A stretch of 56,369 bases of DNA from Clostridia bacterium (GTDB taxonomy: Bacteria > Bacillota > Clostridia > Christensenellales > Aristaeellaceae). The stretch lies in contig JAFXBE010000065.1 in NCBI GenBank assembly GCA_017516765.1, forward strand, positions 1-56,369, given 5' to 3'. The notes below the pieces were generated by a model, which worked only from the letters and a program-made list of their open reading frames with translations, had not been told where the DNA came from and searched no databases. Positions 27,655-37,318 of the stretch are shown here, one piece after another. The position numbers and the translations under genes are program-made. Every line of letters starts with the position of its first letter. Position 1 is the first letter of the stretch.

Positions 27655-29841
27655 TTGGATATCGAAAGGGGTTATAGGCAAGGATCAGAGTTGATTGGAG
27701 GTGTTCTTACGCTATACATAACCCATAAAAAAGCGAATGGAGAATATCAGAAGTTGTTGGATCATTTGCTGGGTGTGGCAGAACTGGCAAAACAGTTTGC
27801 TGCACCATTTGATGCCAGCGAACATGCTTACCGTACCGGACTTCTACATGATGTAGGAAAATACAGCCCGGCAGCCCAACGGCGGCAAAATGATCCGGAA
27901 CATACTTCTCTGGTTGACCACTCAACGGCAGGTGCGCAGGTGGCGCAGAATCTATATCACGACACCAGTGCAGCTGCTGCTATTGCCGGCCACCATGGCG
28001 GCTTGTTGAACTGTGGGAGCAGGGCCTGCGAAGATGGGACTCTGATGGGGCGTCTCCAGAAAAAGTTAGATGGTCCACTTGACTCGTCGGCGTGGAAAAC
28101 GGAGGTTTTTCCGCAGCAGCAGATGTATATGCCATCGTGGCTGCACTCACTTTCTAAGAAAAAAGGTCTGTACTCGCTGTCAGTTTATATAAGAATGTTG
28201 TTTTCCTGTCTGGTGGATGCGGATTATCTGGATACAGAAGCCTTTATGTCTGACGGAAAAACGGAACGGGCAGTCTCACTGCCGCTTTCTGCTTTGATGG
28301 AACGGCTACAGCAACATGTTCAGCCGTGGCTTGACTCTGCATCGTCTGCTTTGAATATGAAAAGGAACGAGCTTCTGCGGAGATGCATGAAAGGTGATGA
28401 ATCGTCAAAGGGATTGTATACAATGACAATTCCAACCGGTGGTGGAAAAACGGTAGCCTCGTTGGCGTTTGCTTTGTCGCATGCAATTCAGCATGGTTTG
28501 ACCCGGATTATTTATGTGGTACCGTATACAAGCATAATTGAGCAGAATGCGCAATGTTTTCGAGAGATCGTTGGAGAAGAAGCAGTATTGGAACACCACT
28601 CCAATATCAATTTTGATGACACTGACGAAAAATCTATGAGATCGGCAGCGGAGAATTGGGATGCCCCTATTATTGTTACTACTGCTGTCCAGTTTTTTGA
28701 ATCGCTGTACTCCAATCAAACTTCCAGATGCCGTAAACTCCATAACATATCCAATTCGGTAATCATTTTTGACGAGGCACAGATGCTGCCTGTACCGTAC
28801 TTGAGGCCTTGTGTGAATATGATCGCAGAACTGGTGGAGCATTATGGTTCAACAGCTGTATTGTGTACTGCCACACAGCCAGCCCTTGATAGCTTGATTG
28901 CCAATTATGCACCCGAATTGGCATGCAAGGAGATTACAGAAAACACGGGTGAGCTATATACATTCTTCCGGCGTACGAAGTTTTGCTGCGAAGGCGTTTT
29001 CAGCGAGGAAGCTTTGGTCGAGAACTTGCTCCACTCTCAACAGGTGTTGTGTATTGTTAATTCGCGCAAAAGGGCAAACGAACTGTACCAAATGCTGGGG
29101 CAGCAAGGGCGTTTTCATCTTTCTACGCTTATGACACCAGAGCATAGAAGCAGAACGCTTAAAAAAATAAAAGAACGGCTGAATAAAGGATTGGTATGCA
29201 GGGTAATATCCACAAGTTTGATAGAAGCGGGTGTGGATCTGGACTTCCCTACTGTATGGCGTGAAGAGGCAGGTCTGGATTCTGTGCTGCAAGCAGCTGG
29301 TCGTTGCAACAGAGAGGGAAAACGCCCGTTGGAAGAAAGCCTTGTGCATGTTTTCCGATTTGGTGAAAGACCACCGAAAATGTTTATGCAGAATATCACC
29401 GCGCTGAACAAGGTGTTGGATAGGTTTGAAGACATTGCTACACCGGAAGCGATCACATACTATTTCCGGCAATTGTTGTTTATGGTCGGGGAAGACGCCT
29501 TGGATACCAACGGGATCGTTGATAAGTGTACAAGACTAGCTTTCAGAGATGTTAAGGAGAGTTTCCGTATTATTGACGATGAAACGATACCGGTTTATAT
29601 ACCAACCGTAAATAACGCGCATTTGCTTCAAGCGCTTCGTGATCAGACGATCTCTCGTTATGGTCTGCGAGAACTTGGCAGAGATGTGGTCAATGTTTAT
29701 TCTCAGCATTTTGAGATGCTGCGCGGATATATGTACTGTTCCAAGGATGATAGTTTTGGAATTCTACAGGATGCAGATCGGTATGACGAGGAATGCGGGT
29801 TGCTTTTGGAACCGTCAACGGGTATGAAGTGGTTTCCGTGA
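27655..29841 (+). CDS. cas3: Cas3 helicase-nuclease of a type I-C CRISPR system
   Basis: 728 residues as drawn. HD nuclease: DHLLGVAELA, LLHDVGK (H65-D66) and GHHGG. Helicase: Walker A TIPTGGGKT (about residue 260), DEAQ box (IIFDEAQML), motif III TATQP and motif VI QAAGRCNREG. All parts look intact, so it should unwind and degrade DNA marked by Cascade. The start is unclear. Relatives begin at a Met equal to the Leu codon CTA at 27712, ten bases after GGAGG, so the normal ATG seems lost. Candidates are TTG at 27691 (AAGGA seven bases upstream) or TTG at 27655 (no site). It is separated from cas5c by 265 bases holding the guide-RNA-like element. Confidence 0.93.
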   Translation: MDIERGYRQGSELIGGVLTLYITHKKANGEYQKLLDHLLGVAELAKQFAAPFDASEHAYRTGLLHDVGKYSPAAQRRQNDPEHTSLVDHSTAGAQVAQNLYHDTSAAAAIAGHHGGLLNCGSRACEDGTLMGRLQKKLDGPLDSSAWKTEVFPQQQMYMPSWLHSLSKKKGLYSLSVYIRMLFSCLVDADYLDTEAFMSDGKTERAVSLPLSALMERLQQHVQPWLDSASSALNMKRNELLRRCMKGDESSKGLYTMTIPTGGGKTVASLAFALSHAIQHGLTRIIYVVPYTSIIEQNAQCFREIVGEEAVLEHHSNINFDDTDEKSMRSAAENWDAPIIVTTAVQFFESLYSNQTSRCRKLHNISNSVIIFDEAQMLPVPYLRPCVNMIAELVEHYGSTAVLCTATQPALDSLIANYAPELACKEITENTGELYTFFRRTKFCCEGVFSEEALVENLLHSQQVLCIVNSRKRANELYQMLGQQGRFHLSTLMTPEHRSRTLKKIKERLNKGLVCRVISTSLIEAGVDLDFPTVWREEAGLDSVLQAAGRCNREGKRPLEESLVHVFRFGERPPKMFMQNITALNKVLDRFEDIATPEAITYYFRQLLFMVGEDALDTNGIVDKCTRLAFRDVKESFRIIDDETIPVYIPTVNNAHLLQALRDQTISRYGLRELGRDVVNVYSQHFEMLRGYMYCSKDDSFGILQDADRYDEECGLLLEPSTGMKWFP

Positions 29842-29885
29842 AAAAAGCAACACGCGGAGAATGCTATATATTCTCCGCGTGTTGC
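29841..29885 (-). terminator. Terminator of the minus-strand guide-RNA-like transcript
   Basis: A perfect 16-bp stem (29847-29862 with 29870-29885, core ACGCGGAGAAT) with a 7-nt loop. The U-tract lies on the minus-strand side (six A on the plus strand, 29841-29846, touching the cas3 stop codon). On the plus strand the hairpin is followed by AACAAATAAA, not a T-run. So it is built for a transcript running towards cas3, though it may weakly end cas3 mRNA too. Confidence 0.8.
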
Positions 29886-29928
29886 AACAAATAAAATTAC
29901 TGTTTCAACCCACTGGTGCATACCAGAC
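29841..29928 (-). ncRNA. CRISPR-derived guide-RNA-like element between cas3 and cas5c
   Basis: Read on the minus strand. A 27-nt pseudo-repeat (29928-29902) starts with GTCT like the array repeat, has a 5-bp stem CTGGT/ACCAG with a 4-nt loop in place of the 8-bp stem, and ends with the 11-nt handle TGGGTTGAAAC (array repeat: TGGGTTGAAAT). A 17-nt guide AGTAATTTTATTTGTTG (29901-29885) follows and runs into the terminator hairpin. Its target is 29977-29961 on the same strand, preceded by TTC (29980-29978): guide positions 1-11 and 13-17 match and only position 12 differs. The predicted RNA of about 88 nt would begin at the pseudo-repeat. Type I-C Cas5c cuts repeats at the base of the stem, leaving an 11-nt handle, so it could plausibly be processed and loaded into Cascade. 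It resembles CreA/CreR-type RNAs known from other CRISPR types. Expression is not shown. Confidence 0.8.
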
Positions 29929-29934
29929 ATCAAG

Positions 29935-29963
29935 ATGGTATCATAACAGCACAAACAAGTCAA
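29935..29963 (-). promoter_or_regulatory. Predicted promoter of the guide-RNA-like element
   Basis: On the minus strand TTGACT (29963-29958), 17-bp spacer, TACCAT (29940-29935) with TG one base before it (extended -10). Transcription would start near 29928, exactly at the 5' end of the pseudo-repeat. The first three bases of the -35 box are also the last three matched bases of the guide's target. Confidence 0.65.
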
Positions 29964-29980
29964 CATATAAAATTACTGAA
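29961..29980 (-). promoter_or_regulatory. PAM-flanked target site of the guide-like RNA
   Basis: TTC (29980-29978) followed by a 17-nt stretch matching the guide at 16 positions. TTC is the usual PAM of type I-C systems. The mismatch is at position 12; in type I Cascade every sixth guide base is flipped out, so it would not matter. Beyond position 17 there is no match, which would favour binding without DNA cutting. Cascade here would cover the RNA's own -35 box and sit next to the cas5c promoter. Confidence 0.75.
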
Positions 29981-29989
29981 AAAAATATA

Positions 29990-30018
29990 TTGAATTGATG
30001 AAGAACGTGTGGTAAAGT
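29990..30018 (+). promoter_or_regulatory. Predicted promoter of cas5c-cas8c-cas7
   Basis: TTGAAT (29990-29995), 17-bp spacer, TAAAGT (30013-30018) with TG one base before (extended -10). The expected start near 30025 leaves an 80-base leader with a small inverted repeat ATACCG/CGGTAT (about 30048-30071). The promoter diverges from that of the guide-like RNA. Confidence 0.6.
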
Positions 30019-30106
30019 AGCCTTGTCTGGTGAATGTGTTTCGAACAATACCGGGTGGCATGAAGCGGTATAAGAAAACTCAATAGAATTATTGGAGGTG
30101 AAATGG

Positions 30107-30754
30107 TTGTCGATCAGAATGGAAATCTGGGGAAACGAGGCATGCTTTAGCAGACCGGAGATGAAAACCGAACGTGTAAGCTACGATACGATTACTCCAA
30201 GCGCAGCACGCGGGATAGTGGAAGCAGTGTATTTTCATCCGGGACTTAGATGGTATATAGATCGTATCTATGTATTGTCGCCCATTCGTTTTACGAATTT
30301 GCGCCGCAACGAAGTAAGGTCTAAAGTTTCACACATGAATGCGCTAAGCGCAGCCAATAGAACGAGTCAGAATCTCTATCTTGTTACTGCAAATGATATT
30401 CAGCAACGCGCCTCGCTGATGCTGCGGGATGTACACTATGTTATTGAAGCGCACTTTGAGATGACGGACAAAGCGACCCCATCCGACAACCCGGGTAAAT
30501 TTCAGGATATCATCAAACGCCGCCTGCGGCGGGGGCAATGCTACAGCCAGCCATATCTGGGGTGCAGGGAATGCACAGCTCATTTTGCCCTTTGGGAGAA
30601 GAACGAGATCCCAACCATACAAGAAACCCGCGATCTTGGGTGGTGCCTGTACGACATGGATTACAGCGACCCACAGAATATTGTGCCAATGTTCTATAGG
30701 GCGCAGATGGTCAATGGTGTGATCGATTGCCGGAATTGCGAGGTGGTAAGATGA
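30107..30754 (+). CDS. cas5c: Cas5c (Cas5d), crRNA-processing Cascade subunit
   Basis: 215 residues from the TTG at 30107, eight bases after GGAGG; an earlier TTG at 30092 overlaps the ribosome-binding site. The N-terminus MEIWGNEACFSRPEMKTERVSYDTITPSA is diagnostic of type I-C Cas5 (family usually 210-240 residues). In I-C systems this protein replaces Cas6: it cuts the repeat at the base of its stem and stays on the 5' handle. It ends in an ATGA overlap with cas8c. Confidence 0.93.
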   Translation: MSIRMEIWGNEACFSRPEMKTERVSYDTITPSAARGIVEAVYFHPGLRWYIDRIYVLSPIRFTNLRRNEVRSKVSHMNALSAANRTSQNLYLVTANDIQQRASLMLRDVHYVIEAHFEMTDKATPSDNPGKFQDIIKRRLRRGQCYSQPYLGCRECTAHFALWEKNEIPTIQETRDLGWCLYDMDYSDPQNIVPMFYRAQMVNGVIDCRNCEVVR

Positions 30755-32496
30755 TCCTTCAAGCGTTGGTGGAGCTATATGAAGCTCTTGCCGTCAAAGG
30801 AATTCTGGAACAGCCGGGTTGGTCATCTGCCAAGGTGGCATGGGGGCTTGAACTGGACGAAACAGGAAGGCTGCTCTATTGCTTGCCGCTGCAACGGGAG
30901 ATTGTCAAAAACAAGAAGGTGGTTACTGTTGCACGAGAGATGAAGGTGCCCACACCGGTTAAGCGTACGGTTGGTATCGAAGCCAATTTCCTTTGTGATA
31001 ATTCGTCGTATGTACTAGGTGTGGATGTAAAGGGAAAGCCCGAACGTACATTGCGGTGCTTCGGGGCATTCAAGGACAAGCAGCACAGATTGCTTGATGG
31101 ATGCAGCCATCCCGCCGCCGTAGCACTGTTGAGGTTTCTTGATGACTGGAAGCCGGATGCGGCATTGCAGCAGCCCGTGTTGAAGGAGCATGTGGATGAT
31201 ATCATAAAGGGCGGCAATCTGGTGTTTGTGTATGAGGGCGCATTCGTACATGATATACCCGAAATAAGAAGCATCTGGCAGGCTGCATATTCAGACGAGG
31301 AAAACGCGGTGTACCGGCAGTGTCTGGTAACAGGAAAAACGGCGCCTGTGCAGATCCTCCATCCCAGCATAAAGGGTATACCGGGTGCCCAATCTTCTGG
31401 AGCATCGCTTGTATCCTTCAATGCACCGTCTGCAGAATCGTATGGGTGTGACGAATCGCAGGGGCTTAATGCTCCCGTAAGCACTTATGCTGCGTTTGCA
31501 TATGGCGCTGCCCTTAACTATCTGATAAGCAGCGAAAAACACCACCTTCGCATCGGCGATACCACCGCGGTATTCTGGGCAGAGGACGGGCAGGAAGTAT
31601 ATGCGGAGTATTTGCACGATATGATGGGAAGCAACAATATGGACGATGGGTCGCTTCTCGGCACGCTGAATGCTATTGCCGACGGCAAGAATATCGCTTG
31701 GAACAATTTGCCACTGGAGGCTTCCAACCGGTTCTATATTTTGGGGCTTGCCCCAAATGCTGCCCGTCTTTCTGTGCGATTTTTCCTGTGTAATACCTTT
31801 GGTGAACTGATGCGGAACATTCAAGTGCATCAGACGGCATTGGACATTGTTAAACCGCTTTACGACCATTGGAACGAACTATCCGTGTGGTGGCTGCTGA
31901 ATGAGACGGTAAACCAGAACTCTCGAGATAAGCAGCCGCATCCGCAGATGGCGGGAGATCTGATGCGGGCAATATTGCAAGGCGAAGCGGTTCCGTACCC
32001 AACCACATTGTTCAGTCAGGTTCAGCTACGAATTCGGGCAGAAAGAAAGATCAGCCGGGGAAGAGCTGCCATTATCAAAGCTTTTCTGTGGCGAAATAAG
32101 AGCTTTTTACACAAGGAGGTTTTGACCGTGCAATTGAACGAGGAGACCAATTATCTACCCTATCTGCTGGGTCGGCTGTTCTCGATACTGGAAAACCTGC
32201 AGGAAAAAGCCAACCCCGGCATTAATGCCACCATTAGAGACCGGTATTTCAATTCTGCTACCGCAACACCTGCTATCGTTTTTCCAACGCTGATCCGATT
32301 GGCTCAGGCGCACCTTAAAAAACTGTCTGCCGGAGATAAAACGTATTTTGACAGGCAGATAAGAAAGATTATGGAGAAAATTAGCGAAAGTTATCCGGCG
32401 CGGTTGTCGCTGCATGATCAGGGTGTATTCCAACTTGGTTATTATCATCAAACACAGAGCCGTTTTATCAAAAAGGAGGAGAAAGAAAATGTCTGA
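30751..32496 (+). CDS. cas8c: Cas8c (Csd1), large subunit of type I-C Cascade
   Basis: 581 residues from the ATG at 30751, overlapping cas5c by four bases. The N-terminus (MILQALVELYEAL) and segments such as YGCDESQGLNAPVS and AAFAYGAALNYLI are typical of Csd1/Cas8c. It recognises the PAM and opens the target DNA; in I-C the small subunit Cas11c is often made from an internal start inside this gene. A good candidate is the ACAAGGAGG at about 32113, followed by the GTG at about 32128 (VQLNEETNYLPYLLG), which would give a product of about 120 residues. It overlaps cas7 by eight bases. Confidence 0.93.
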   Translation: MILQALVELYEALAVKGILEQPGWSSAKVAWGLELDETGRLLYCLPLQREIVKNKKVVTVAREMKVPTPVKRTVGIEANFLCDNSSYVLGVDVKGKPERTLRCFGAFKDKQHRLLDGCSHPAAVALLRFLDDWKPDAALQQPVLKEHVDDIIKGGNLVFVYEGAFVHDIPEIRSIWQAAYSDEENAVYRQCLVTGKTAPVQILHPSIKGIPGAQSSGASLVSFNAPSAESYGCDESQGLNAPVSTYAAFAYGAALNYLISSEKHHLRIGDTTAVFWAEDGQEVYAEYLHDMMGSNNMDDGSLLGTLNAIADGKNIAWNNLPLEASNRFYILGLAPNAARLSVRFFLCNTFGELMRNIQVHQTALDIVKPLYDHWNELSVWWLLNETVNQNSRDKQPHPQMAGDLMRAILQGEAVPYPTTLFSQVQLRIRAERKISRGRAAIIKAFLWRNKSFLHKEVLTVQLNEETNYLPYLLGRLFSILENLQEKANPGINATIRDRYFNSATATPAIVFPTLIRLAQAHLKKLSAGDKTYFDRQIRKIMEKISESYPARLSLHDQGVFQLGYYHQTQSRFIKKEEKENV

Positions 32497-33421
32497 AGTG
32501 ATTCGTAACCGCTATGATTTCGTTGTTTTGTTTGATGTTGAAAACGGTAACCCGAACGGCGACCCCGATGCCGGCAATATGCCCCGTATCGACCCCGAAA
32601 CCAACTGCGGCATCGTAACAGATGTATGCCTGAAACGGAAAATTCGCAACTATGTGGAAACCTTGAAAGAGGATGAAGAAGGGTATGCCATCTATATCAA
32701 GGAGGGTGTGCCGCTGAACCGGAGCGATGTGGGAGCCGGGGACGAATTGAATGTGAAAGAAGAACTCGCTTCTCTCTCCGGGGCTTCTAAGGAGGAAGCC
32801 AAAAAGATCGGTGCCAGAATGAAGAGCAAGGATCCGCGCATCGACGAAAAACTGCGGGATTATATGTGCAAGCACTTTTTCGATGTACGTACCTTTGGTG
32901 CCGTAATGACAACCTTTATGAAGGCGGCCTTGAATTGCGGGCAGGTACGTGGGCCTGTGCAGCTTGGCTTTGCGCGTAGTGTAGACCCTGTTATGCCGCA
33001 AGAGGTAACGATTACCCGTATGGCGATCACCACTGAAGCCGATGCTGCCAAAAAAGATACGGAGATGGGGCGTAAATTTGTGATCCCTTATGGCTTGTAC
33101 CGGACAGAAGGTTTTGTTTCGGCAAATCTTGCCAGAAAAACCACCGGTTTTACCGAGGAAGATCTTTCCCTTTTGTGGGATGCCATCATCAATATGTTTG
33201 AAAATGACCGTTCTGCGGCACGTGGAAAAATGGCTGTTCGGGAACTGATTGTCTTTAAGCACGAAAGCGAGCTGGGCAACGCACCAGCGTGGAAGCTGTT
33301 TGATAAAGTGCATGTTGAACGGAAGGAAGGTGTGCAGCCTGCCCGCAGCTATCATGATTATACTGTTACGGTTGATACAGAACAACTTCCGGAGGGTGTT
33401 ACCTGTGTAAGAATGCTGTAA
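32489..33421 (+). CDS. cas7: Cas7 (Csd2), backbone subunit of type I-C Cascade
   Basis: 310 residues from the ATG at 32489, with AAAAGGAGG upstream inside the end of cas8c. Typical Csd2 features: RYDFVVLFDVENGNPNGDPDAGNMPRID at the N-terminus, the DVRTFGAVM segment near residue 130 and RAARGKMAVREL-like region (RSAARGKMAVREL) near 245. Several copies coat the crRNA. In most I-C operons cas4, cas1 and cas2 follow directly; here the leader and array follow instead. Confidence 0.94.
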   Translation: MSEVIRNRYDFVVLFDVENGNPNGDPDAGNMPRIDPETNCGIVTDVCLKRKIRNYVETLKEDEEGYAIYIKEGVPLNRSDVGAGDELNVKEELASLSGASKEEAKKIGARMKSKDPRIDEKLRDYMCKHFFDVRTFGAVMTTFMKAALNCGQVRGPVQLGFARSVDPVMPQEVTITRMAITTEADAAKKDTEMGRKFVIPYGLYRTEGFVSANLARKTTGFTEEDLSLLWDAIINMFENDRSAARGKMAVRELIVFKHESELGNAPAWKLFDKVHVERKEGVQPARSYHDYTVTVDTEQLPEGVTCVRML

Positions 33422-33640
33422 CCGATGTGCACGGCGGGCTGCTGTTACAGATAACGAGTTGTCTTGCGGTGCGAACCTTCGGCGAACGTGAAAAGTGCAG
33501 GAGGTTCGCACCGATCAAACAGCCATTTTGGTGCAAAACGGTTGTTTGAAGCAGGAGTATCAGTGCTTCTGTGCTTTGGCTTGTAGGCGATTTTGTAAAG
33601 GATGATGAAAAAGGAACAACTGGTTTTGTTTATCATTACA
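33422..33640 (+). promoter_or_regulatory. CRISPR leader
   Basis: 219 bases between cas7 and the first repeat with no gene. It holds a perfect 10-bp inverted repeat GGTGCGAACC (33468-33477) / GGTTCGCACC (33503-33512), a pair I associate with I-C leaders, where it normally comes just after cas2. The last 60 bases are AT-rich and should contain the array promoter, though no box stands out. I find no remnant of cas4, cas1 or cas2 here. Confidence 0.8.
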
Positions 33641-34280
33641 GTCTCTCTCCGCGAGGAGAGAGTGGGTTGAAATAAGCTGGGCTTTATTGACGGGCAGATG
33701 CGCTCCAGTCTCTCTCCGCGAGGAGAGAGTGGGTTGAAATTTGGCGAGGATGATCTTTCCCGCCTTACGGCAGATGTCTCTCTCCGCGAGGAGAGAGTGG
33801 GTTGAAATTCGTTTGAGATGAGCGATGATCAGTACGCTGCCCGGTCTCTCTCCGCGAGGGGAGAGTGGGTTGAAATGGCATGCTGTGGCGTGCGTGTGAA
33901 TCCGAAACGAGTCTCTCTCCGCGAGGAGAGAGTGGGTTGAAATTGCTTCGCCTGAGATGCCTGCAGACGGTAAGCCTGTCTCTCTCCGCGAGGAGAGAGT
34001 GGGTTGAAATGATTGGGAAGCCTTTGAACGCCGATTAAAGCAAGGGTCTCTCTCCGCGAGGAGAGAGTGGGTTGAAATACCATCAGGCATATGGCTAAGT
34101 TTTTGTGCGTGGTCTCTCTCCGCGAGGAGGGAGTGGGTTGAAATATCGTAAGCCGTTTCGGCACTGCCGGTGCAAAGCCGTCTCTCTCCGCGAGGAGAGA
34201 GTGGGTTGAAATAAGTTGGCGAGGCTGTTGGGGTGTGTGCCACGGGGGTCTCTCTCCGCAAGGAGAAAGACTTACCATTT
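33641..34280 (+). CRISPR. Type I-C CRISPR array, 9 spacers
   Basis: Nine good 33-nt repeats begin at 33641, 33708, 33776, 33844, 33911, 33978, 34046, 34112 and 34180, plus a degenerate last one at 34248. The repeat starts GTCTCTCTCC, has the loop GCGA, the pairing arm GGAGAGAG and the handle TGGGTTGAAAT. Spacers are 33-35 nt. Repeats 4 and 8 each carry one A-to-G change in the right arm; the last repeat keeps only its first half. The leader-proximal end is at 33641, so the newest spacer should be spacer 1. I saw no spacer that matches elsewhere in the window, by eye only. Confidence 0.97.
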
Positions 34281-34285
34281 TCATA

Positions 34286-34328
34286 ATACCAAAACGGGGG
34301 CGGCATCTAACCGTCCCCGTTTTGGTAT
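34286..34328. terminator. Terminator after the CRISPR array
   Basis: An 18-bp stem with one wobble (ATACCAAAACGGGG... with ...CCCCGTTTTGGTAT) and a 7-nt loop. It closes the array transcript and may also end the minus-strand AlaX transcript. It also marks the return to GC-rich DNA. Confidence 0.75.
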
Positions 34329-34399
34329 CATACGAATCAAAATGATCTTTATCAGGATGTGTATGCGAATGACTTGAAATAAAACGGCTGCAGCCCGTC

Positions 34400-35593
34400 T
34401 TACATCCCCTCCACGACCGCCACAGCCCTCGTCAGAATCTCCTCGCACCCGCCGCCCTGGGCAAAGTCCGGTCGGCCGCCGCCTTTGCCGCCCAGAGGCT
34501 GGGCGCACTCCCGGAGCAGCTTGCCCATGTCCGCATCCACATCGGCGGAACGTCCGAAGACATACACCGCGCTGTCGCCGGTCTTCGCGCCCATCAGGGC
34601 GATCACCCGCGGCTCCTGGATCAGGCGGGATACCAGCAGCTTGAGGGAGGCGGCGTCCGCATCCGCAAAGCCGCAGATCAGCTTTGCGCCGCAGGGCAGG
34701 GCGGGGGCGGTCTTCAGCATGGTGGGGATGCGGGCAAAGAGCATGTCCTGCTTCATCCGGGTAATGGTGATCTCCGCATTGCGCAGCCGCTCCTGCAGGG
34801 CGGCGATGGATTCCCCCAGCCCTTCCGCAGTGGTGGAAAGCTGCTGGGAGGCGGTGCGCACCGCATCGTGGCAACGCTGATAATCGGCAAAAGCCCGCTG
34901 CCCCGCCAGAAAGCTGACCCGCATCTTACCCCGGGCAGGCGCGACCGACAGGATCTTGACCAGCCCCAGCTCTCCCGCATTGCGGGGATGGGTGCCGCCG
35001 CAGGCCACCATCTCATCATCGCCGATGGCAACGATGCGCACATGCTCGCTCACCGTGGGCTTCTTGCGCAGGGGCAGGGCTGCCAGCTCCGCCTCCTCCG
35101 GGAACCAGCAGCGGATGGGCACATTGCGCCGGATGTGCTCGTTCACATCCTCCTCGATCCGCCGGATCTCCGCGTCCGTGATGCGGGTGGCGCCCTCCGG
35201 CATGGCCACATCGATGGTGGAAATATCACTGCTGATGTGCAGCCCGATGGTCACCCCGCCCATGAGCCGGTGCAGCGCCCCGGCGATCATGTGGTCGCCT
35301 GCATGCTGCTGCATGTGGTCAAGGCGGCGCGCCCAGTCGATGCGCCCCTCCACCGTATCCCCCTTGGCAAGGGGTCTGTCCACCGTGTGCCAGACCAGCC
35401 CGTCCTCCACGTTCACATCCAGCACCCGGGCATCGCCAAGGGTGCCGGTATCGTACGGCTGCCCGCCCGAGGTGGGGTAGAAGGCGCTGCGGTCCAGCAG
35501 CACAAGATAGGTATCGTCTTTGGCAAAACAATCCAGCATCGTTGCATGAAATTGGGTCAGGTATGCGTTATCATAGTAGAGCCGTTCGGTCAT
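34400..35593 (-). CDS. alaX: Alanyl-tRNA editing protein, long AlaX type
   Basis: 397 residues from the ATG at 35593 (GGAGGGG upstream); an open frame continues far upstream through antisense of the SH3 genes, which is not real. Features: N-terminal domain with PTSGGQPYD, zinc/editing motif HMQQHAGDH (H-x3-H) and CGGTH (C-x3-H), then a C-terminal DHHA1 domain (GGKGGGRPDFAQGGG). AlaX proteins free tRNA-Ala from wrongly attached serine or glycine; the long form also carries the DHHA1 domain of AlaRS. It lies alone on the minus strand. Confidence 0.92.
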   Translation of the reverse strand: MTERLYYDNAYLTQFHATMLDCFAKDDTYLVLLDRSAFYPTSGGQPYDTGTLGDARVLDVNVEDGLVWHTVDRPLAKGDTVEGRIDWARRLDHMQQHAGDHMIAGALHRLMGGVTIGLHISSDISTIDVAMPEGATRITDAEIRRIEEDVNEHIRRNVPIRCWFPEEAELAALPLRKKPTVSEHVRIVAIGDDEMVACGGTHPRNAGELGLVKILSVAPARGKMRVSFLAGQRAFADYQRCHDAVRTASQQLSTTAEGLGESIAALQERLRNAEITITRMKQDMLFARIPTMLKTAPALPCGAKLICGFADADAASLKLLVSRLIQEPRVIALMGAKTGDSAVYVFGRSADVDADMGKLLRECAQPLGGKGGGRPDFAQGGGCEEILTRAVAVVEGM

Positions 35594-35755
35594 GTTCGAT
35601 CCCCTCCGGGAATATGATACAGGATGGAGAACGGTTTTGGCAACCAATGGTTTGTCCCGCTGTTGCGAAATACAGAAATTCGAAAAATAGCATTTCCACA
35701 GTCGGCAAAACATGGTATACTGTAGTTGATCTATCCTGAGCAAAGGAGAATCGTT

Positions 35756-36340
35756 ATGAAAAAGAAAGTACTGGTTGCCGTCTGTCTGCTGATGGTCTTC
35801 TGCCTGCTGCCGGTGCAGGGTCTGGCGCTGCGGGTGGGCGTTATCGCCCGCGTTACCAGCCCCGGCACGCTGAATGTGCGCATGGGCCCTGGCACCGATT
35901 ACGGCGTTGTGGGCATTGTAAAGCCCGGCTATATCTACGTTTACCTCGGCACGGAGAACGGCTGGAACCATATCGTTTACGAAAACGGTATTACGGGCTA
36001 CATCTCCGGCAACAAGAGCGCGCTGGAGATCGGTCTGGTGCCCGATGAGTACAGCTGCGATATGTTCGCCGAAGCCTATGTGCGCATCACCCATACCGCA
36101 ACGCTCAACATCCGCAGCGGTCCCGGCAAGGAATACCCGGTCATCGCCATCGCCAATCCGCAGGATGCCTACCCCTACATGGGCCCTGCCAACGGCTGGT
36201 ATGCCGTGCAGCTGGATGACGGGCAGATCGGCTATGTGGCCGCCAACCGCAGCGAGGTGGAAATGTGGGGCGTGTACGACGATGAGGGTACGTTCCACTA
36301 CATCACCCTGCCGGAGCTTCAGGCGCTGTATATGCAGTAA
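35756..36340 (+). CDS. Secreted protein with two bacterial SH3 domains
   Basis: 194 residues from the ATG at 35756 (AAAGGAG upstream; an extended -10 TATACT at 35716-35721). Signal peptide MKKKVLVAVCLLMVFCLLPV, then two SH3b domains of about 65 residues (TLNVRMGPGTDYGVVG, TLNIRSGPGKEYPVIA), each ending in a GY(I/V) strand. SH3b domains usually bind cell-wall peptides. It has no catalytic domain. The next gene is a close paralogue 81 bases downstream. Confidence 0.85.
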   Translation: MKKKVLVAVCLLMVFCLLPVQGLALRVGVIARVTSPGTLNVRMGPGTDYGVVGIVKPGYIYVYLGTENGWNHIVYENGITGYISGNKSALEIGLVPDEYSCDMFAEAYVRITHTATLNIRSGPGKEYPVIAIANPQDAYPYMGPANGWYAVQLDDGQIGYVAANRSEVEMWGVYDDEGTFHYITLPELQALYMQ

Positions 36341-36421
36341 ACGCACACGGCATCGTGTGCGGACAGCCGGGCGGCATGCGCCGACGGCATGATATGACCA
36401 AATAAGCAAAGGAGAATTGCT

Positions 36422-37318
36422 ATGAAACGGAAGTTGCTTGTCGCCATCTGTCTGCTGATGGTTTTCTGCCTGTTGCCCATGGAGGGCATGGCTCTTCGTC
36501 TGGGCAACGTGGTACGCGTTACCAGCTCCGGCACGCTGAATGTGCGCAAGGGCCCCAGCACCGATTACGGTACCGTCGGTTCTGTTAAGCCCGACTATAT
36601 CTACATCTACCTCGGCACCGAAAACGGCTGGAACAAGATCGTTTACTCCGAGGATGTGGTGGGCTATATCTCCGGCAACAAGAGCGTTGTGGAAGCCGGT
36701 CTGGTGCCCGACGAGTACAGCGACGGTCTGTTCGCCGAAGCCATTGTACGCATTACCCACACCGCCACGCTGAACATCCGCAAGGGCCCCAGCAAGGATA
36801 CCAAGGTGGTCGCCATCGCCAACCCCAAGGATACCTACAAGTACATGGGCCCCGCCAACGGCTGGTACGCCGTGCAGCTGGAGGACGGCACCATCGGCTA
36901 TGTGGCTGCCAACCGCAGCGAAGTGGAATTTCTGGGCGTTTACGACGAGAACGGCAACTTTACGCAGGTAACCCCTACGCCTTCTCCCACGCCTAAGCCC
37001 ACCCCCAAGCCCACTGCCACTCCCGTACCCACCCTGCCGCCTACTGTGCCGCCCACCCTTGTGCCCATCGTAACGGCGGTGCCCACGGCATACTATCCCA
37101 CCGCCACCCCCGTGCCGCTGTACACCGTGCCCCCGGTAATGCCTCAGGGCTCCGTTCCCTGCCAGCATTGCAGCAATACCGGTGTCTGCACCACCTGCAA
37201 CGGCTTCGGTGCGGTCTATACCAACGGGCAGACCTCTTTGGTCTATTGCCCCACCTGCTATGGCAACGGTCGTTGCCTGCACTGCAGCGGCTCCGGCCGT
37301 CAGGCTGTGCAGTGGTAA
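36422..37318 (+). CDS. Secreted SH3 protein with proline-rich linker and cysteine-rich tail
   Basis: 298 residues, AAAGGAG upstream. The first 185 residues repeat the design of the upstream paralogue: signal peptide and two SH3b domains (TLNVRKGPSTDYGTVG, TLNIRKGPSKDTKVVA). Then comes a Pro/Thr-rich linker (about 185-240) and a tail with CQHCSNTGVCTTCNGFG and CPTCYGNGRCLHCSGSG, which matches the C-x2-C-x-G-x-G zinc-binding repeats of DnaJ. A DnaJ-type zinc finger on an exported SH3 protein is unusual. The pair probably arose by duplication. Confidence 0.85.
   Translation: MKRKLLVAICLLMVFCLLPMEGMALRLGNVVRVTSSGTLNVRKGPSTDYGTVGSVKPDYIYIYLGTENGWNKIVYSEDVVGYISGNKSVVEAGLVPDEYSDGLFAEAIVRITHTATLNIRKGPSKDTKVVAIANPKDTYKYMGPANGWYAVQLEDGTIGYVAANRSEVEFLGVYDENGNFTQVTPTPSPTPKPTPKPTATPVPTLPPTVPPTLVPIVTAVPTAYYPTATPVPLYTVPPVMPQGSVPCQHCSNTGVCTTCNGFGAVYTNGQTSLVYCPTCYGNGRCLHCSGSGRQAVQW

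Follow-up and report, generated by a model that had tools for sequence, protein, structure and literature searches.

What does the gap between the cas3 and cas5c genes of a type I-C clustered regularly interspaced short palindromic repeat (CRISPR) locus encode, and does its product act on the locus itself? The question is raised by a stretch of 56,369 nucleotides from a Clostridia bacterium (contig JAFXBE010000065.1; the whole stretch analysed, here called the window), in which a shortened CRISPR repeat followed by a short guide lies on the minus strand of this gap, close to a site that the guide matches. An initial annotation of the DNA took the element for a CRISPR-derived guide RNA directed at its own promoter. 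Our comparison of related loci indicates that it is very probably a CreR-like gene of type I-C, the RNA of which would guide the locus's own Cascade to the predicted promoter of cas5c-cas8c-cas7 and there would likely repress Cascade synthesis.

Results

The pseudo-repeat (29902..29928, minus strand) is a 27-nt shortened I-C repeat, GTCTGGTATGCACCAGTGGGTTGAAAC, built of GT, a 5-bp stem (CTGGT-ATGC-ACCAG) and an 11-nt handle, TGGGTTGAAAC, which differs from the handle of the array repeats in its last base alone (C for T). It is followed by the 17-nt guide AGTAATTTTATTTGTTG (29885..29901, minus strand). The target (29961..29980, minus strand) comprises the protospacer adjacent motif (PAM) TTC (29980-29978) and the protospacer AGTAATTTTATATGTTG (29977-29961), which matches the guide at 16 of 17 positions, the sole mismatch falling at position 12. 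All these parts, their placement and the single mismatch are present as the initial annotation described them; it had made no mention of the predicted intrinsic terminator that a hairpin scan places at the end of the RNA (29841..29885, minus strand), a 16-bp hairpin (29885-29847) running into T6 (29846-29841). The fold of 29928-29841 has a z score of -5.97 (200 shuffles). When one mismatch is tolerated, the window contains ten matches to TGGGTTGAAA, all of them exact, nine in the CRISPR array and one in the element (3.6 expected by chance), and within the 3.01 Mb of its own genome the combination of PAM (TTC or TTT) and the first 11 guide positions, position 6 being left free, occurs once, at the target site.

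Related loci were gathered by a Cas5c search, which had matches in 42 of 300 genomes of the family and 3 of 17 of the genus, and from 80 named contigs of further relatives, the best 80 of 188 and not a census. From the merged set of 98 loci L110 (a copy of L030), L083 (short upstream region) and L049 (true array in the gap) were left out before the counts. A fixed rule, requiring GTC upstream of a handle that departs from TGG[AG]TTGAAA[CT] at no more than one position, was applied to 700 bp on both strands at 96 loci. It yields a single element in 28 of the 96 upstream regions, in 28/28 on the minus strand (shuffled sets: a mean of 1.0 locus), a true array in place of the element in one (L049), and none in 67, a count that is one too high, as is one gap bin given below, because L100 is a copy of L025. 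A relaxed search, which selects by the guide-target match itself, adds seven loci (L036, L056, L065, L071, L093, L101 and L103); the resulting 35 curated loci serve for the hairpin, promoter and stem analyses, the seven being absent from the strict counts of element, match and position profile. L112, a doubtful relaxed hit on the opposite strand, is uncounted, and L056, at a contig end, is left out of the hairpin and second-handle counts.

The agreement between guide and target extends across these loci. If each guide is given its best gap-free 15-nt match inside 700 bp, with no rule as to PAM or position, 24 of the 28 strict loci reach at least 12/15; among 560 shuffles 3.75% do so, and among 756 guide swaps about 4%. 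The initial annotation had judged the agreement unlikely to arise by chance, and the comparison of the 96 regions with shuffles, which lies far beyond chance, bears this out. Mismatches at positions 1-14 of the 24 loci number 36, with 14 at position 6, 17 at 12, four at 7 and one at 13, i.e. 31 of 36 at positions 6 or 12 (binomial 1e-21), and the PAM is TTC in 19, TTT in four and TTA in one. Positions 6, 12 and 18 are reported as flipped out in type I-E Cascade (PMC5965380), and TTC and TTT as the I-C PAMs of Neisseria lactamica (PMC10865793). For a position profile of all 28 loci targets were chosen by seed positions 1-5, 7 and 8 and then by overall match; the PAM, which was not used in selection, is TTC at 23 of these targets, TTT at four and TTA at one. 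Agreement is 1.00 at positions 1-5, 0.36 at 6, 0.86 at 7, 1.00 at 8-10, 0.93 at 11, 0.25 at 12 and 0.86-0.89 at 13-15, and towards the guide end 0.68 at 16, 0.64 at 17, 0.18 at 18 and 0.14-0.32 at 19-22, the values at 1-5, 7 and 8 being partly by construction since targets were picked on those positions first. In L057, L074 and L108 agreement runs to about position 10-11 and resumes past a one-base gap near 12, as if the flipped base were skippable; such a gap would explain three of the four loci below 12/15.

Guide and target also change together. Between the window and L033, the Cas5c proteins of which are 94% identical, position 10 goes from A to G in guide and target alike and the fifth stem pair from T-A to C-G, and between L009 and L010 guide and target again change together at position 10. 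L044/L047 and L048/L052 combine near-identical pseudo-repeats with different guides, each guide having its own TTC target. The initial annotation had proposed asking whether guide and target co-change in related loci while TTC is kept, and these pairs mostly answer yes, the part that fails being seed position 7, mismatched in L044 and L048. Each of the four stem positions tested is paired in 29 of the 30 loci whose GTC is usable, as against a mean of 4.2 and a maximum of 11 when the arms are re-dealt (2000 rounds); the stem of the pseudo-repeat covaries across loci. The idea that the pseudo-repeat handle tracks the handle of its own array was dropped as evidence (GGGTT versus GGATT in L044, L047 and L070).

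By record title the curated carriers are mostly Clostridia, and include a Phascolarctobacterium (L046), a member of the Veillonellaceae (L057) and one of the Atopobiaceae of the Actinomycetota (L108). Cultured carriers, again by title, include Eubacterium barkeri VPI 5359, Eubacterium aggregans SR12 and Fusicatenibacter saccharivorans D41t1, in which the relaxed search supplied the element. Sorted by the estimated cas3-cas5c gap, the curated element is found in 2 of 5 loci with gaps of 120-180 bp, 25 of 32 at 180-300 bp, 6 of 9 at 300-500 bp and 0 of 2 above 500 bp, and in 1 of 46 below 120 bp (L064), where the gap is most likely miscalled because the guide begins 162 bp upstream of cas5c. A Cas5c tree was built from 113 rows, after nine that were distant or partial had been removed by name and one more for its shortness. 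Its 38 positives require no fewer than 28 changes, and well-supported branches force 20 of these; with labels shuffled the mean is 32.0, and 27 of 500 shuffles come out as low as observed. This scattered distribution indicates that the element has often been gained or lost. A held-out set of 30 loci minus four already known, some of the remaining 26 having weak Cas5 matches and perhaps not being I-C, contains four strict elements, each on the minus strand; a TTC target, matched at 12, 13 and 15 of 15 positions, accompanies three of them (L128, L123 and L127, respectively). In L049 (Faecalicatena orotica) the cas3-cas5c gap is filled by a genuine plus-strand CRISPR array, 410-75 bp before cas5c.

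The hairpin, too, is a common feature, beginning 11-31 nt past the guide start in the 34 readable loci and lying above the shuffled 95th percentile in 32 (exceptions L093 and L103). No second handle-like sequence is present in any of 37 readable loci (37/37), so the layout is not that of a two-repeat mini-CRISPR. The CRISPR RNA (crRNA) of type I-C is described as having an 11-nt handle, a 33-nt spacer and a 21-nt 3' handle with a hairpin (PMC5965380), and we infer that in the short RNA the terminator hairpin replaces this 3' stem-loop. In L072, L075 and L088 the hairpin just after the guide begins GTCGC, resembling the 5' end of the I-C repeat, and the hairpin may therefore descend from a second repeat.

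A consensus scan of the window predicts a promoter for the guide RNA, TTGACT-17-TACCAT (29935..29963, minus strand; start expected near 29928), the -35 of which overlaps the target, and one for cas5c-cas8c-cas7, TTGAAT-17-TAAAGT (29990..30018, plus strand), with 9 bp between it and the PAM side of the target. In the window, binding at this site could thus act on both promoters, given its 9-bp distance from the -35 predicted for cas5c and its overlap with the -35 predicted for the guide RNA. In 17 of the 35 curated loci the predicted guide-RNA -10 ends 20-25 nt before the handle, so transcription would start about at the pseudo-repeat. In 35/35 the target is on or next to the promoter predicted for cas5c (random placement 20.3/35): it is 0-11 bp upstream of the predicted -35 in 19 and overlaps -35 to +20 in 16, whereas an overlap with the predicted promoter of the RNA itself is seen in 9/35. 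The common target is therefore the predicted effector-gene promoter. Targeting of the RNA's own promoter, as read by the initial annotation, is thus not supported as the main role. Were the RNA mainly self-regulating, Cascade at 29980-29961 would block the guide RNA's promoter and keep the guide scarce, as the overlap seen in the window would allow, but outside the nine loci the site can be as much as 130 bp upstream of the promoter predicted for the RNA, while at every locus it adjoins or overlaps the one predicted for cas5c. As a main role we consider own-promoter control improbable and have set it aside. The same geometry bears on whether Cascade just upstream of the cas5c -35 might activate rather than repress: the 19 sites immediately upstream would suit an activator, but at the other 16 binding should block, and as we know of no case of activation by Cascade alone this seems very improbable.

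Two further explanations concern what, if anything, the RNA is for. CreA, the RNA of the CreTA toxin-antitoxin, likewise is a crRNA-like guide from degenerate repeats and uses a TTC PAM (PMC9458426), and the RNA might thus silence a toxin in the gap; yet it is cas5c that follows the targeted predicted promoter, the short open reading frames (ORFs) of the gap (25-49 aa) show no sign of a toxin, and in many relatives the site is at most 100 bp from the cas5c start, which leaves little room for one. With no toxin candidate among these ORFs, and no toxin promoter as in CreTA or CrePA, this was rejected as the least probable of all. That the element is a functionless relic, left over from an earlier array, and that its self-derived spacer matches by chance or by recent self-acquisition, would fit a repeat derivative adjoining cas genes and the 28 changes among 38 positives on the Cas5c tree. 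A relic is, however, hard to reconcile with guide-target agreement and a PAM in most loci, with co-change at position 10 (L003/L033 and L009/L010) and with stem covariation; on the agreement and covariation it was set aside as highly unlikely.

The locus itself is of type I-C, with cas3, cas5c, cas8c, cas7 and the repeats all found in the window, in a genome of 3.01 Mb in 121 contigs, 95.5% complete. The ORF of cas3 (27655..29841, plus strand) scores above cut-off for TIGR01587 and TIGR01596, its true start possibly being further in. Downstream of the gap, on the plus strand and each above cut-off, are cas5c (30104..30754, TIGR01876), the product of which is the predicted cutter of the repeat 5' of the handle, cas8c (30733..32496, TIGR01863) and the cas7 of type I-C (32486..33421, TIGR02589). 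The CRISPR array (33641..34280, plus strand) has a 33-nt repeat, GTCTCTCTCCGCGAGGAGAGAGTGGGTTGAAAT, starting at 33641, and nine spacers of 33-35 nt. Its final repeat, at 34248, is degenerate and precedes a 21-nt inverted repeat pair (34283-34303 / 34311-34331) that is terminator-like. I-C cas1 (TIGR03640) has no match in the genome, cas2 and cas4 not having been searched, and the locus may be without spacer acquisition genes of its own because cas1 has no match and the array follows directly after cas7. Rfam gives four weak matches over 29500-34500, none at gathering score and none covering the element. Further on, two adjacent ORFs (35726-37318) have a 300-nt direct repeat in common, 78% identical between them, and represent a tandemly duplicated gene for a small repeat-domain protein.

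Discussion

The core of the initial annotation, a derivative of the I-C repeat with a short guide, PAM, seed match and tolerated flipped mismatch that binds without cutting in the manner of CreA and CreR, is well supported by the comparison. Transcription is predicted to start near 29928 and to stop at the hairpin and T6 near 29841. Cas5c would cleave 5' of the 11-nt handle, the terminator hairpin taking the role of the 3' stem-loop that would otherwise come from a second repeat, and a short Cascade would assemble on the 17-nt guide and bind the TTC site; to judge from the pairing pattern among loci, positions 6 and 12 would need no pairing. An R-loop of about 17 bp would be too short to license Cas3, leaving the chromosome uncut, as work on types I-B and I-F1 suggests: I-B spacers of 26 nt or less are reported to keep repression and lose cutting (PMC10551041), in Haloarcula 24 nt ends interference while repression remains (PMC10989794), and in I-F1 spacers of at least 14 nt are described as assembling and binding, full-length R-loops alone triggering Cas2/3 (PMC7296934). 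One repeat and one spacer are reported to be enough for repression by an engineered I-C system (PMC10865793). By analogy with CreR, the complex beside or over the cas5c promoter would block transcription, and array crRNAs or anti-CRISPRs that draw Cascade away would lift the repression.

Several observations count against this interpretation. The promoters were called by consensus matches alone, and a site just upstream of a -35 might in principle have an effect other than repression. Seed position 7 is mismatched in 4 of the 28 strict loci, and the closest relative, L033, is mismatched at 6, 7 and 12, so that one seed position is unpaired. L057, L064, L074 and L108 fall below 12/15, having TTC sites with shorter or gapped agreement. 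Only 20 of the 34 hairpins have at least four T among the next eight bases. The loci without an element by the strict rule (67/96) include some with long gaps, and for the element of the held-out L133 no target was found.

More broadly, we think it probable that the I-C systems of Clostridia and their neighbours carry distinct one-repeat, terminator-ended guide RNAs, with which a shortened Cascade binds without cutting and sets the Cascade level, and that many lineages have rewritten guide and target together, in which case the loci amount to a naturally occurring mutational scan of I-C pairing with drift chiefly at positions 6, 12 and 18. If this is true, a common CRISPR subtype has feedback via its own effector, its Cascade level following crRNA supply and anti-CRISPR attack, and the one-repeat, terminator-ended build would be a natural template for compact repression-only guides that do not require removal of Cas3. 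From sequence alone, the evolutionary pattern shows that I-C follows a flip-out rule of six nucleotides, and it offers a simple criterion by which such RNAs can be sought elsewhere. A caution follows for I-C tools with a native cas3-cas5c gap, which may be damped by the locus's own guide.

CreR, the cas-regulating RNAs of Liu et al. 2023 in Cell Host Microbe, usually have the layout of a two-repeat mini-CRISPR. Shmakov et al. 2023 in Nucleic Acids Research (NAR) reportedly describe CRISPR-derived regulatory elements, standalone repeats and mini-arrays in the neighbourhood of cas genes, the spacers of which are in part complementary to cas promoters. The I-C element would resemble theirs in being a standalone repeat near cas genes. 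Our literature search found no I-C case of CreR, though Shmakov 2023, the likeliest source, and Liu 2023 lay outside its reach. Autorepression by CreR is in print for I-B, I-E and V-A (PMC13131331), and a review refers to CreR in type I and V-A generally (PMC12737573). In these accounts CreR is a crRNA-like RNA that is partly complementary to a cas promoter and has a proposed role in autorepression of the Cas effectors (PMC13131331, PMC12737573). The like is predicted for the I-C element, a repeat derivative that stands beside the cas genes of its own system and has a guide partly complementary to a predicted cas promoter, with a PAM. It differs from CreR in having one pseudo-repeat and a terminator hairpin. 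CreA is reported to have one or two repeats (PMC9458426), so we do not treat the two-repeat layout as strictly defining for CreR.

The element shares with CreA a degenerate repeat, a partial match, the TTC PAM and, by prediction, Cascade as the repressor, but CreA represses a toxin RNA (PMC9458426), whereas the predicted promoter targeted here leads to cas5c. Racr, the phage RNA anti-CRISPRs made of solitary repeat units, are similar in that a solitary repeat lies close behind a predicted promoter; as described, however, they are viral, lie away from cas genes, sequester Cas proteins and have no guide to a promoter (PMC10651486), whereas the I-C element is inside the cas locus of its host and not in a virus or prophage. 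Engineered I-C CRISPR interference is alike in its single repeat and spacer, which suffice there for repression by Cascade, and in its TTC and TTT PAMs, and differs in being engineered, in its 35-bp spacer and in leaving out cas3 (PMC10865793); its authors state that no other engineered type I system with a one-repeat, one-spacer array was known to them (PMC10865793). Taken together, these comparisons suggest that the I-C element works like CreR but differs from it in layout, a single pseudo-repeat and a terminator hairpin standing where CreR would have two repeats.

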